From Candidatus Nanopelagicales bacterium (GTDB taxonomy: Bacteria > Actinomycetota > Actinomycetes > S36-B12), in contig JAURFD010000002.1 of NCBI GenBank assembly GCA_030827125.1, positions 221,632 through 285,631 of the forward strand: DNA of 64,000 nt. Direction: 5' to 3'. Each line of letters starts with the position of its first letter. The stretch's first letter is position 1. The translations under genes were made by a program, and so were the position numbers. Below, piece by piece: positions 47,226-63,351 of the stretch. Under the pieces are notes generated by a model that was not told the DNA's origin, searched no databases, and worked only from the letters and a program-made list of their open reading frames with translations.

Positions 47226-48040
47226 CCGCCTGTCGCCTCGTCGACGAACCGCTCGCCGGTACCGCGCCACGAGCCGATACCTGGTGGCTCGTTGAGGACT
47301 CAGGACCCTGGGGTGATCGGGCCCCGGCCACGAGCAGGCGTCACGGGGTCCGTGATCTGGCCAGCGATGCCCTCCGTCGCGTCCTCCTCGTGCGACCCAC
47401 GGTGCGCCGCAAGGACGCCGAGGATCGAGCGCTCACCATCTGGATCGTCTCCGGCAGCGGGGGCCTGCCGCGGCGTCACGTCACCTCGCATCCGGCCGAG
47501 ATTGTGGACTGGCCCGTATCGGGGGACCCGAGCGCCCAACAGGACGACGAGACAGCAGACGCACCCACGCTGCTGATCTGCACCAACTCCGCGCGCGACG
47601 CCTGCTGCGGCATCGCCGGCCGCGAACTGGTGCGTCACCTCGGAGCGAGGATCGGCGTGTGGGAGTCTTCCCATCTCGGCGGCCATCGATTCGCCCCAAC
47701 GGCTCTGCAGACACGACAGGGAATGGTCTACGGCCGGCTCACCCCCGAAGCCGCCATCGTCACCTTGGATGCGGACGCCCTCGACCCGGCCCTCGGGGCC
47801 TTTATGCGCGGCTCTCCCGCACTTGATCCCGCGGCCCAGGTCGCCGAACTCGCCGTTCTCACCCAATGGGGCATCCGCGGCGCAGTGACCGCGACGACGG
47901 ACACGACGGTGGGCATGGATCTTGGCGACGGGCGCCGCGCCACCGTCACGGTGCGGCCTGTCCCTCTCAACCCGCGGCCGGTGTCCTGCGGCGCCGAGCC
48001 CACGGCGGGTACCGCCTGGGAGGCTACCCAGGTCGTCTAG
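47222..48040 (+). CDS. Apd1/sucrase-ferredoxin-like thioredoxin-fold [2Fe-2S] protein
   Basis: 272 residues. The cluster motifs of the Apd1/Aim32 family are present: C-x7/8-C in ICTNSARDACCGIAGRELV and H-x-G-G-H in ESSHLGGHRFAPTALQ. These proteins bind a His/Cys-ligated [2Fe-2S] cluster; redox partners are unclear. The GTG start overlaps the parC stop (GTGA). The end overlaps by 4 bases with the convergent FprA-like reductase gene, a possible electron partner (inference). Confidence 0.82.
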   Translation: MTACRLVDEPLAGTAPRADTWWLVEDSGPWGDRAPATSRRHGVRDLASDALRRVLLVRPTVRRKDAEDRALTIWIVSGSGGLPRRHVTSHPAEIVDWPVSGDPSAQQDDETADAPTLLICTNSARDACCGIAGRELVRHLGARIGVWESSHLGGHRFAPTALQTRQGMVYGRLTPEAAIVTLDADALDPALGAFMRGSPALDPAAQVAELAVLTQWGIRGAVTATTDTTVGMDLGDGRRATVTVRPVPLNPRPVSCGAEPTAGTAWEATQVV

Positions 48041-49389
48041 CGGGATGCGGCCAGAAGATCCTCACGCGTGTGCACCGTGGTCCGGTCTCGACCGGCACGT
48101 GCGCCGAGAGCGCGCTCGGCCTCATCGATACGGCGCCACCCGTCATGATCGACGACCTGCCAACCGGTCAGCGCCGCATCCACGGCAGCCGCCGTGGCAC
48201 CCCCTGCAGCCCCGAGCAGTCCGGCCTGCGCATCGGCGAGAAGACCGCTCACCGTCTGCACGGCACACTTCTTGTTGGTCCCAATGATCCCACTGGGGCC
48301 TCGCTTGATCCACCCGGTGACATAGAGGCCGGGAATAGGTCCCCCGTCGCCGAGAACCCGTCCCTCGTCATTGGGGATCACGTGGCGGGAACCGTCAAAC
48401 GGAACATCGTCGAGGGGTAGACCCCGGTAGCCCACACTCCGGATCACCACGTCGACGGGGAGCGTGGACGTCTCGCCGGTACCGGTCGCGCGTCCCTCGG
48501 CATCGATGATGGTCCGCTCAAGGACGAGCTCTTGCACACGGCCGTCGCCGCGGATCTCCACGGGCCGTGAACGAAAATGCACATGAATCATGCGCGGCTG
48601 GTCCGCCACCGAACGCTCCAACCACTCGGCAATGACTGCAACGTTGCGGGCGGTGGCCTTGTCAGACGCGATGGCCGAGGCGCTCGCCGGATCATCGACC
48701 TCGGCACCTCCATCGACGACGATGCCGCATTCACTCAGCTCGCCGAGCTCGCGCAGTTCCTTCGTCGTCCAATTGGCCTGCGCCGGTCCGCGCCGACCAA
48801 TGAGGTGCACCTCGCGCACCGAGGACGCACGCAAGGCGTCGAAGACGTGCTGGGGCATGTCGGTGTGCTCGATTTCGCCGGGTGACTTGCTGAGGACGCG
48901 CGTGACGTCCACGGCAACATTGCCCACGCCGATGACCGCGACACTGCGTGCGCGAGCAAGGAGGTCGGTGAACTCATCGGGGTCCATGTCCGGATGCCCC
49001 GTGTACCAGTTCACGAAGTCCGTGGCGGCAATGCTGCCTTCGAGATCCTCGCCCGGAATCTGAAGTTCGCGATCGCGCGAGGCGCCATAGGCAAGAATGA
49101 TCGCGTCATAGAACTGTTCCATCTGGGCCCAGGTGAGATCCGTGCCGACCTCGACATTGCCAAGGAAACGGACCCCCGGACGATCGAAGATCGCGTCCAG
49201 CTTGTCGCGTACGGAGCGAATGCTCAGGTGGTCAGGCGCGACGCCGTAGCGCACCAGCCCGAACGGCGTCGGAAGGCGGTCGATGACATCTACGGTGACG
49301 GGCACGTCATCTTGGGATGCCAGGGCGTCGGCGGCATACAACCCGGAAGGGCCAGCGCCCACGATGGCTACGCGCAGCGGACGATCCAT
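48037..49389 (-). CDS. FAD-dependent ferredoxin-NADP reductase (FprA/adrenodoxin-reductase type)
   Basis: 450 residues. FAD motif VAIVGAGPSGLYAADAL; PTPFGLVRYGVAPDHLSIRS; NADP motif VAVIGVGNVAVDVTRVLSKS; HLIGRRGPAQANWTTKELRE; and the C-terminal TGWIKRGPSGIIGTNKKCA diagnostic of FprA. Transfers electrons from NADPH to a ferredoxin. As the last gene of the Rieske operon, it is the likely reductase for the Rieske ferredoxin at 62938. Start ATG 49389, 13 bases after the HAD gene. Confidence 0.9.
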   Translation of the reverse strand: MDRPLRVAIVGAGPSGLYAADALASQDDVPVTVDVIDRLPTPFGLVRYGVAPDHLSIRSVRDKLDAIFDRPGVRFLGNVEVGTDLTWAQMEQFYDAIILAYGASRDRELQIPGEDLEGSIAATDFVNWYTGHPDMDPDEFTDLLARARSVAVIGVGNVAVDVTRVLSKSPGEIEHTDMPQHVFDALRASSVREVHLIGRRGPAQANWTTKELRELGELSECGIVVDGGAEVDDPASASAIASDKATARNVAVIAEWLERSVADQPRMIHVHFRSRPVEIRGDGRVQELVLERTIIDAEGRATGTGETSTLPVDVVIRSVGYRGLPLDDVPFDGSRHVIPNDEGRVLGDGGPIPGLYVTGWIKRGPSGIIGTNKKCAVQTVSGLLADAQAGLLGAAGGATAAAVDAALTGWQVVDHDGWRRIDEAERALGARAGRDRTTVHTREDLLAASR

Positions 49390-49402
49390 GTGCTTCTCCT
49401 CG

Positions 49403-50056
49403 TCAGGGCGATCCGGCGTCGAGCCCCAGAAGCGCGCGCGCTTGGGCGAAGCCCGGTCCGGGATCCACCGGGTTGAGATAGACCGTCTGCATGCCGATGG
49501 TCCGCGCGCCCTCGAGGTTGATCGGCTGATCGTCGATGAACACGCACTCTTCCGGAGCCACTCCCATCCGCTCCACCATGAGTTCGTAGGCACGTGGATC
49601 GGGCTTCATCACCCCATCGGTGCGCCCCTCGACCATGAAGTCAAACTCGGCGAGGACCGTCATGGTGTCCACCCATTCCTGGTCGTGGAAGGAGCGAAGA
49701 TCGTTGGTGAGGAGCCCCACGGGAATTCCCGCCGCCTTGGCCTCGGCAATGAGGGCTCGTGCCTCGGGCCGGGTGAGCTCCTCGACGCTACCCCGATAGA
49801 GGTGCGCCATAAAGGCCGGCATCTCGGCAGGTTCACCCGTGAGGTCGGCGAACTCCTCACAGCGGCGGCGCCAGTACTCAGTCTCCTTCATCTCGCCGGA
49901 CTGGAAAACCCGCCAGTCAGCGTCCGCATCCGGGTCAAACGGACCCGTCCACGTCAGGGTTCCCGGGGGCAAACTCATCGACCGCTCCCCCGCCGCGCGC
50001 AACTCAAAGGGGGTCAACAGCACGGGGCCGCCAAAGTCGAAAACCAGGGCGGTCAG
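49403..50056 (-). CDS. HAD family hydrolase, CTG start
   Basis: 217 residues when started at CTG 50056. The catalytic N-terminus LTALVFDFGGPVLLTPFEL (nucleophile Asp7) is only complete with this start; the next usable codon (GTG 50023) would cut off the nucleophile. GGAGGAACA precedes the CTG, and CTGA overlaps the stop of the zinc-ribbon gene. Other motifs: VGLLTNDLRSFHDQEW, MKPDPRAYELM and CVFIDDQPINLEGAR. Resembles the epoxide-hydrolase-N/haloacid-type HAD branch. It may dephosphorylate or dehalogenate a pathway intermediate; the substrate is unknown. Confidence 0.8.
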   Translation of the reverse strand: MTALVFDFGGPVLLTPFELRAAGERSMSLPPGTLTWTGPFDPDADADWRVFQSGEMKETEYWRRRCEEFADLTGEPAEMPAFMAHLYRGSVEELTRPEARALIAEAKAAGIPVGLLTNDLRSFHDQEWVDTMTVLAEFDFMVEGRTDGVMKPDPRAYELMVERMGVAPEECVFIDDQPINLEGARTIGMQTVYLNPVDPGPGFAQARALLGLDAGSP

Positions 50057-62829: not shown

Positions 62830-62927
62830 TCCAGGTGACCATGGTCCAGGGGCGCACCCCGGAGCAGAGGCGCGCCCTCATCCGTGGCCTCAGCGATGCT
62901 GCCGCCGCCGCACTGGATACCCCGTGA
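62820..62927 (+). pseudogene. Truncated 4-oxalocrotonate tautomerase
   Basis: Reads MPLIQVTMVQGRTPEQRRAL, then RGLSDAAAAALDTP and a TGA: 35 residues instead of about 62. Pro1 (after Met removal) and Arg11 are present, but the second half with Arg39 and the hydrophobic wall is missing. No intact continuation is seen in the other frames before the Rieske ferredoxin start 11 bases later, so a deletion is more likely than a point frameshift. Its ATG overlaps the decarboxylase gene by 10 bases. Probably inactive. Confidence 0.75.
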
Positions 62928-62937
62928 CGGATTCACG

Positions 62938-63351
62938 ATGACGACTCGGGTCGGGGCCTCATGGCACCGCACGATCAGTAGTGAGACCGCTGCCACCCCA
63001 ACGCGTGTCGTCGTCGCCGGTCGCCCGGTGCTCGTCCACGTGGTCGAGGGCACGCCGTACGCCGTGGCAGATTCCTGCCTGCATCGTGGGCTCTCCCTCG
63101 AAGGAGGACGCTGCGTCGACGGCGTCATCACCTGCCCGGAGCACTGGTGGCGCTACGACCTGCGCACCGGGGAGCACCTCGGGACACCCGGCGAATATCT
63201 GCCGACCTACCCCGCACGACTCGCCGAGGATGGCGTCATCGAGGTGGAGGTGGAAGACGCCGCCCCCACCGTGTCTTTGCGGGAAACACTGCTGGCACAC
63301 GCACGCGCGGGACGAGCCGGTCAAGGGGCGGTCACGGAGGGGACCGCTTAG
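62938..63351 (+). CDS. Rieske [2Fe-2S] ferredoxin-like protein
   Basis: 137 residues. The Rieske box is CLHRGLSLEGG followed by CPEHWWRYDLRTGEHLG (Cys-x-His, Cys-x-x-His). Its length suits a Rieske ferredoxin that feeds electrons to the oxygenase at 50.3-51.6 kb, with the FprA-type enzyme as reductase (inference). ATG at 62938; no clear ribosome-binding site, so translation may depend on the upstream tautomerase remnant. C-terminal 40 residues are not part of the cluster domain. Confidence 0.85.
   Translation: MTTRVGASWHRTISSETAATPTRVVVAGRPVLVHVVEGTPYAVADSCLHRGLSLEGGRCVDGVITCPEHWWRYDLRTGEHLGTPGEYLPTYPARLAEDGVIEVEVEDAAPTVSLRETLLAHARAGRAGQGAVTEGTA

Follow-up and report, generated by a model that had tools for sequence, protein, structure and literature searches.

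We describe a gene cluster that joins an aromatic dikinase to a Rieske oxygenase and to ring cleavage, located in a 64,000-nucleotide stretch (here called the window) of a Candidatus Nanopelagicales genome (assembly GCA_030827125.1, contig JAURFD010000002.1, positions 221,632 to 285,631). Besides the dikinase subunits DikI and DikH and the oxygenase, the cluster encodes a histidine phosphatase (HisP), two extradiol dioxygenases, enzymes of the lower meta pathway, a conserved protein called U229, and a small four-cysteine protein (Table 1). The gene order is conserved, the catalytic residues are intact, and the dikinase is akin to those of cre-type operons. From the genes we infer both the substrate and every reaction of a route in which the substrate is phosphorylated, oxygenated, and then dephosphorylated. 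We consider this scheme probable, whatever the chemistry of the oxygenation; only tentatively do we propose that the oxygenation is specifically a hydroxylation of the ring of phenol or of an alkylphenol. With a chance just short of even, the cluster represents a widespread, undescribed aerobic route in which phenols are converted to catechol only as phosphate esters, by a Rieske enzyme that has become an aryl phosphate oxygenase and recognizes the phosphate as an anionic handle, which a dedicated histidine phosphatase then removes; U229 and the four-cysteine protein would be new parts of this route.

The combination recurs well beyond the window. Relatives of the window's Rieske gene occur at 236 loci in named genome records, of which we compared the best 80; their Rieske proteins are 60 to 95% identical to that of the window, and the closest named locus among them (L023, 95%) belongs to a Candidatus Nanopelagicales metagenome-assembled genome (MAG). 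Each neighboring gene was counted over the loci with sufficient upstream DNA, and loci too short were excluded. Of the 68 loci able to show it, 65 have DikH next to the Rieske gene, and the remaining three are from Pseudonocardia. Also found near the Rieske gene are DikI (61/65), HisP (55/62), extradiol dioxygenase 2 (51/57), extradiol dioxygenase 1 (50/55), U229 (49/55), an IclR-family regulator (51/52), and the four-cysteine protein (77/78). The genes for the two extradiol dioxygenases (1, then 2), HisP, DikI, DikH, and the Rieske oxygenase keep the same order and strand in 50 of the 51 loci that have all six, and hence their arrangement is not due to chance. Homologues of the HAD hydrolase and the ferredoxin reductase are present in 58 and 21 of the 80 loci, respectively, and a phthalate-dioxygenase-reductase-like protein is present in 13. 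The loci belong to Nanopelagicales, Nocardioides, Kineosporia, Pseudonocardia, Acidimicrobiia, and Nitriliruptoraceae, with cultured carriers in Nocardioides, Kineosporia, and Pseudonocardia. A Nanopelagicales-like cluster is also found on contigs titled Rubrivirga or Bifidobacterium breve (L038, L042, L043, and L045); we take these titles as binning or naming errors in MAGs.

An earlier model-made note on this DNA, the sequence-only reading, had listed a dikinase, a phosphatase, a HAD hydrolase, a Rieske oxygenase with ferredoxin and reductase, extradiol dioxygenases, and lower meta-cleavage genes in divergent operons, and had proposed their co-occurrence in relatives as a check on an aryl phosphate route. 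All these genes are present and open, in two divergent rows that meet at one conserved operator, and the counts above bear out the co-occurrence.

The exceptions to co-occurrence mostly favor a link between the dikinase and the Rieske oxygenase. In three Pseudonocardia genomes the sole full-length DikH match is only 29% identical and lies within approximately 6 kb of the Rieske gene, and at the Rieske locus L080 the dikinase comes from a different clade. Thus, the type of dikinase changes, and some dikinase stays beside the Rieske gene. In Pseudonocardia hydrocarbonoxydans (L099, 4889-11224), the distant dikinase lies between two Rieske paralogues that share 56% and 62% identity with the window's enzyme.

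The association also holds among close relatives. In 59 genomes of the window's order, including the window's own (G000; 2.6 Mb, 82 contigs, 97% complete), the Rieske gene was found in 19 and HisP in 20, with 19 shared, and DikH at a minimum of 57% identity was found in 19. The sets agree except in G005, where DikH was not found, and G009, where the Rieske gene was not found; both assemblies are in 260 to 270 contigs. Neither the Rieske gene nor HisP was found in 39 of the 59 genomes, and HisP was not found in G037, a genome that carries a cre-type operon instead.

A search from the side of the dikinase gave a similar picture. Among 396 evenly drawn Actinomycetota genomes, 23, the window's own included, have DikH relatives at an E-value of 1e-60. 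In 11 of these besides the window's own, DikH is at least 57% identical, and 10 of the 11 have a Rieske gene in the fetched stretch (two of these stretches are cut by a contig end), the eleventh being G375. Fourteen more sampled loci have a dikinase of 41 to 52% identity; a Rieske gene is present in one of them (L134), a biotin-dependent carboxylase in six, and a piece of a phenylphosphate carboxylase in one.

DikI and DikH are encoded by adjacent, separate genes for the ATP-grasp (PF01326) and swivel (PF00391) parts, as in two-component aromatic dikinases. The swivel motif of DikH, TDTGGMMSH, contains His560, which is conserved in 105 aligned rows, and matches the motif of two-component phenol kinases, given in PMC12167813 as T/SxxGGxxxH with Met at -2, and with Ser at -1 in CreH and PpsA. 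The same paper gives submicromolar KM values for HpeHI. A tree of 106 DikH proteins places 81 of them in a single clade (support of 99, from a quick tree without bootstrap), and 80 of these 81 have a Rieske gene; the contig of the other one ends first, and its genome has the Rieske gene on another contig. The sister of this clade consists of three P450 (cre-type) loci (support of 99 for the pair), which places the window's dikinase outside the cre-type clade itself, in a separate clade of 81 rows versus 3. The tree took in dikinases of more than 35% identity and at least 480 residues, which left out those of Pseudonocardia, and CreH of Corynebacterium glutamicum itself is absent from it; a few rows drew long-branch warnings, none of them in the 81-member clade. 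Of the rows labeled Rieske, two are placed elsewhere than in this main clade: L080 and a second dikinase of L114 (12091-13905, minus strand, genome G086). The latter belongs to another clade, is 47% identical, and lies just past a complete Rieske cluster.

The three P450 loci (L103, L104, and L142) contain a P450, a short-chain dehydrogenase/reductase (SDR), a ferredoxin, a reductase, and an HD protein. The order in L103 and L104 is P450, DikI, DikH, SDR, ferredoxin, reductase, HD protein, and aldehyde dehydrogenase, which in gene kinds and order equals creJ to creC as listed in PMC7764795. The sequence-only reading was wrong in one point, namely, that known phenol dikinases serve a carboxylase; not all of them do. 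According to PMC12167813, CreHI of C. glutamicum initiates aerobic 4-cresol catabolism, and PMC7764795, which gives the cre gene names, places a P450 system and a phosphohydrolase in the creHI operon; the window's dikinase is the sister of the dikinases of such operons. The oxygen-dependent route via an aryl phosphate that the earlier note had inferred still fits the co-occurrence and the HisP data, whereas the contrast it drew with known dikinases was partly wrong.

The cluster itself shows no sign of a carboxylase, as had been claimed. Biotin carboxylase, carboxyltransferase, ppcA, and ppcB gave no match in the window at an E-value of 1e-3 and were found in none of the 80 loci; for the ppc carboxylase genes the search covered the window and these loci but not the remainder of the genome. 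P450 and HD phosphohydrolase also had no match in the window, the HD phosphohydrolase of cre-type operons occurs in none of the 80 loci, and a P450 occurs in one, at 30% identity.

The known systems share different parts of this cluster. The Cre pathway (CreHI, CreJ/CreE/CreF, and CreD) has a split dikinase of the sister clade, an oxygen-dependent oxidation, and a phosphatase in the operon, and the Cre-type loci L103 and L104 also have an IclR-type regulator. However, the window's cluster has a Rieske oxygenase in place of the P450 and HisP in place of the HD phosphohydrolase, and it includes the genes for catechol ring cleavage. The Hpe/Acv pathway for acetovanillone (HpeHI, HpeCBA, and HpeD), from an aerobic actinobacterium, likewise includes a homologous dikinase together with a phosphatase (PMC9618137), whereas the window and the 80 loci lack its biotin-dependent carboxylase. 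The anaerobic phenol pathway of Thauera and Azoarcus (phenylphosphate synthase PpsAB and phenylphosphate carboxylase Ppc) also has a homologous dikinase, and DikH is 47% identical to the one beside the ppc genes of Azoarcus sp. KH32C; the window's cluster differs in having oxygenases and no ppc carboxylase. The aniline pathway via gamma-glutamylanilide combines ATP-dependent tagging, a Rieske oxygenase, and extradiol cleavage, but there the tag is a glutamate on nitrogen and not a phosphate on oxygen, and the tagging enzyme is unrelated.

Dikinases and Rieske oxygenases also meet elsewhere. On haloarchaeal plasmids of Natribaculum, Natrinema, and Haladaptatus (L109, 3039-11715; L110, 4572-11960; and L111, 2413-11945), an aromatic dikinase neighbors a different, two-subunit Rieske oxygenase together with a metallophosphoesterase and an aldehyde dehydrogenase. 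This pairing is apparently independent of the actinobacterial one, and we count it for the proposed scheme. In L123 (4617-16781), two aromatic-type dikinases stand in tandem near molybdopterin hydroxylase genes, with a CoA-transferase gene upstream, and in Thermomicrobium roseum (L106, 9992-18468) one such dikinase is near molybdopterin hydroxylase genes; both possibly represent a further use of these kinases.

Why would a cell spend ATP on a phenol before oxidizing it? We hypothesize that DikI loads ATP and that His560 of DikH relays the phosphate to the phenol, a mechanism described for PpsAB and HpeHI, so that DikHI would make an aryl phosphate from a simple phenol at the cost of ATP to AMP. 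The phosphate could retain the phenol in the cell and could supply the negative charge by which relatives of the oxygenase hold aromatic acids. Ring hydroxylation of this aryl phosphate by the Rieske oxygenase would follow, with electrons from the Rieske ferredoxin and the flavin adenine dinucleotide (FAD) reductase or, in Nocardioides, from the phthalate-dioxygenase-reductase-like protein. After oxygenation HisP would strip off the phosphate and free catechol, much as CreD acts after the P450 step of the cresol route. The two extradiol dioxygenases would cut the catechol, and the lower meta pathway would yield pyruvate and acetyl-CoA.

The catalytic residues for the steps of oxygenation and dephosphorylation are intact. 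In the Rieske oxygenase the ligands of the Rieske cluster and of the 2-His-1-carboxylate site (C69, H71, C88, H91, D175, H178, H183, and D311) are kept in 92 to 93 of 94 rows, and in HisP the RH(G/A) motif and the second catalytic His (R114, H115, and H294) are conserved in 74 rows. An internal stop in HisP, reported in 8 of 11 genomes, was read as a match extending upstream of the real start; HisP is open from its start codon in L101 and L102, two of the eight flagged, and also in L055 and L075.

The ring-cleavage genes point to the nature of the ring. Both extradiol dioxygenases score over the TIGR03211 cut-off, and the best solved relative of extradiol dioxygenase 1 is catechol 2,3-dioxygenase (1mpy); hence, the substrate of ring cleavage likely lacks a carboxyl group and is either catechol itself or an alkylcatechol. 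A search of the window's genome for a flavin phenol hydroxylase (PF07976) gave no match, while the control matched in C. glutamicum, and this absence fits a phenol as the substrate. PF02332 had no match in the genome either, but its control matched nowhere. The best candidate in the genome for 2-hydroxymuconic semialdehyde dehydrogenase reached 512 bits (cut-off of 693). The candidate meta-cleavage-product hydrolase, encoded far from the cluster, is 63% identical to the hydrolase part of a Nocardioides protein (L093, 1103-2341, minus strand), a single open frame that fuses a Rieske ferredoxin domain to an alpha/beta hydrolase akin to meta-cleavage-product hydrolases. Frames grouped with this fusion occur in eight loci. 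The genes annotated in the flanks of the clusters gave no clue to the substrate.

Several observations weigh against the scheme or its details. The dikinase gene of L137 (G375) breaks off after residue 362, and the remaining approximately 3 kb contain no Rieske gene; this is either a true counterexample or an assembly fault. HisP is not nearby in 7 of 62 loci and extradiol dioxygenase 1 is not nearby in 5 of 55, although each of the seven loci has HisP elsewhere in the genome and HisP was found in all 11 genomes probed. Phthalate and isophthalate dioxygenase hold a carboxylate with a conserved Arg (PMC12445078). The aligned position of the window's oxygenase, 235 as mapped from the alignment with structural relatives and that paper, is occupied in 92 rows by Lys (48), Ala (41), or Arg (3), which means that charge recognition, if any, differs among the members and that the idea of a phosphate handle is not borne out at this site. 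Moreover, the cluster has no conserved cis-diol dehydrogenase (homologues of SDRs occur in 10/80 and 3/80 loci), and this speaks against a plain cis-dihydroxylation. Finally, a mycothiol-dependent formaldehyde dehydrogenase scoring over the TIGR03451 cut-off is present in 7 of 19 Rieske genomes and in 6 of 40 others, a slight lean toward O-demethylation.

The last two points bear on the chemistry of the oxygenation. The closest solved relatives of the Rieske oxygenase are phthalate dioxygenases (7fjl, 7fhr, and 9ina), and the protein matches the C-terminal families of LigXa and VanA, which are O-demethylases of aromatic acids. The family gives no reading of the reaction type, because vanillate demethylase has been engineered to a dioxygenase and phthalate dioxygenase to a monooxygenase (PMC10511449). 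Within the same scheme, the oxygenation could be an O-demethylation: after phosphorylation of guaiacol or an alkylguaiacol, the Rieske enzyme would take off the methyl group as formaldehyde, leaving HisP to free catechol or an alkylcatechol for the extradiol dioxygenases. The LigXa/VanA matches would agree with this, the phosphate could supply the charge that guaiacol lacks, a diol dehydrogenase would be unnecessary, and TIGR03451 is somewhat more common in Rieske genomes. Yet it is not over the cut-off in 12 of these 19 genomes, including the window's own, so that the difference decides little; no formaldehyde gene was found in the annotated flanks, and phthalate dioxygenases are the closest solved relatives. 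We regard O-demethylation as unlikely.

An attack of the Rieske enzyme on the phosphate-bearing carbon and its neighbor, giving an unstable product that expels the phosphate and leaves catechol, would also need no diol dehydrogenase. HisP would then be a safety valve for surplus aryl phosphate, a function that an amidase has in the glutamate-tagging route for aniline, and this would agree with the several genomes in which HisP lies apart from the genes for the dikinase and the Rieske oxygenase. However, we know of no Rieske enzyme that attacks a phosphate-bearing carbon, and HisP is present in every Rieske genome probed and in all 19 of the order, which is steadier than a safety valve requires; we find this mechanism improbable. 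Least likely of all, with little chance of being correct, is a peripheral role in which the dikinase and HisP store, detoxify, or sense phenol while the Rieske oxygenase feeds the extradiol dioxygenases from an unphosphorylated substrate: related dikinases such as rifampin phosphotransferase inactivate drugs (PMC12167813), but the DikH clade tracks the type of oxygenase and, where the clade of the dikinase differs, some dikinase is still found next to the Rieske gene, both of which suit a step in a pathway. The order of phosphorylation, oxygenation, and dephosphorylation remains our preferred reading.

The two rows of genes may share their regulation. The inverted repeat between them is a probable IclR operator; the exact half-site occurs nowhere else in the window, whereas half-sites with up to 3 mismatches (8 in the window, 10 expected) are not rarer than chance. 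A half-site matching at least 11 of 14 positions was found in 42 of 59 intergenic regions, the window included, and in 0 of 59 shuffled ones, with the provisos that the shuffles preserve single-base content only, that the loci are related, and that the half-site is the window's own. The sequence GGAA-N6..9-TTCC, initially taken as the core of the operator, was present in only 10 of 59 regions. One site between both operons and the adjoining IclR gene suggest a single regulon.

U229 is a His-rich, conserved protein with 935 relatives in a protein search and a model of high confidence (pLDDT of 95), but it matched no Pfam or NCBIfam family and gave no Foldseek match at an E-value of 0.001. The small four-cysteine protein, also without a Pfam or NCBIfam match, is probably metal binding. 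These two proteins, the operator, and the distant hydrolase are absent from the earlier note. The HAD hydrolase carries FDFGGPV at the position of DxD, the usual motif in many HAD phosphatases. Next to the ferredoxin gene (window 63361-63873) is a gene for a weakly carbonic anhydrase-like protein, far under the family cut-off, with homologues near a few related clusters.

Table 1. Features of the cluster and of the distant hydrolase gene, with positions in the window
Feature	Position	Strand	Basis
FAD-dependent ferredoxin reductase-like protein	48037 to ~49389 (start inferred)	-	PF07992
HAD-family hydrolase	49403 to ~50056 (probable CTG start)	-	PF00702
Small four-cysteine protein (CPxC...CxxC)	50053-50331 (start unsure)	-	Alignment; no family
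Rieske oxygenase, phthalate dioxygenase/LigXa type	50339-51598	-	PF00355, PF19301, PF19112
DikH, swivel and substrate-binding dikinase subunit, 602 aa	51795-53603	-	PF00391; NF006153 813 bits, cut-off 578
DikI, ATP-grasp dikinase subunit	53633 to ~54712 (start codon inferred)	-	PF01326 377 bits
HisP, histidine phosphatase branch 1	54715-55821	-	PF00300 51.5 bits
Extradiol dioxygenase 2	55835-56746	-	Catechol 2,3-dioxygenase family; TIGR03211 352 bits, cut-off 320
Extradiol dioxygenase 1	56746-57654	-	Catechol 2,3-dioxygenase family; TIGR03211 378 bits, cut-off 320
Inverted repeat between operons, probable IclR operator	57720-57755		Conserved half-site
U229, no known family	57776-58465	+	Conserved across loci
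IclR-family regulator	58462-59268	+	Best NCBIfam BhcR and PcaR/PcaU, both under cut-off
2-Oxopent-4-enoate hydratase family	59309-60100	+	TIGR03220 241 bits, under cut-off 409
Acetaldehyde dehydrogenase (acylating)	60117-61025	+	TIGR03215 416 bits, cut-off 282
4-Hydroxy-2-oxovalerate aldolase	61022-62050	+	TIGR03217 502 bits, cut-off 286
Hydratase/decarboxylase family, nearest 2-oxo-3-hexenedioate decarboxylase	62047-62829	+	TIGR03218 269 bits, under cut-off 351
Rieske-type ferredoxin	62884-63351	+	Best match dioxygenase ferredoxin family, under its cut-off
Alpha/beta hydrolase, candidate meta-cleavage-product hydrolase, distant from cluster	11922-12752	+	Nearest HsaD and BphD, under cut-offs

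An oxygen-dependent route of kinase, oxygenase, and phosphatase as such is known from the Cre pathway of Corynebacterium, which the sequence-only reading overlooked when it called the combination unfamiliar. Among open-license PMC papers, our searches listed none on a dikinase combined with both a Rieske oxygenase and ring cleavage. What appears to be new is the combination of such a kinase with a Rieske oxygenase, HisP, and ring-cleavage enzymes, its wide spread, and two conserved proteins of no known family. If the proposed route is true, it would be a third use of aromatic dikinases, which would feed a Rieske oxygenase and ring cleavage in addition to carboxylases and P450. It would also give Rieske oxygenases a new class of substrates and a removable handle, useful in the selective oxidation of phenols, and would credit actinobacteria with small genomes, such as Nanopelagicales, with a route for phenol degradation.

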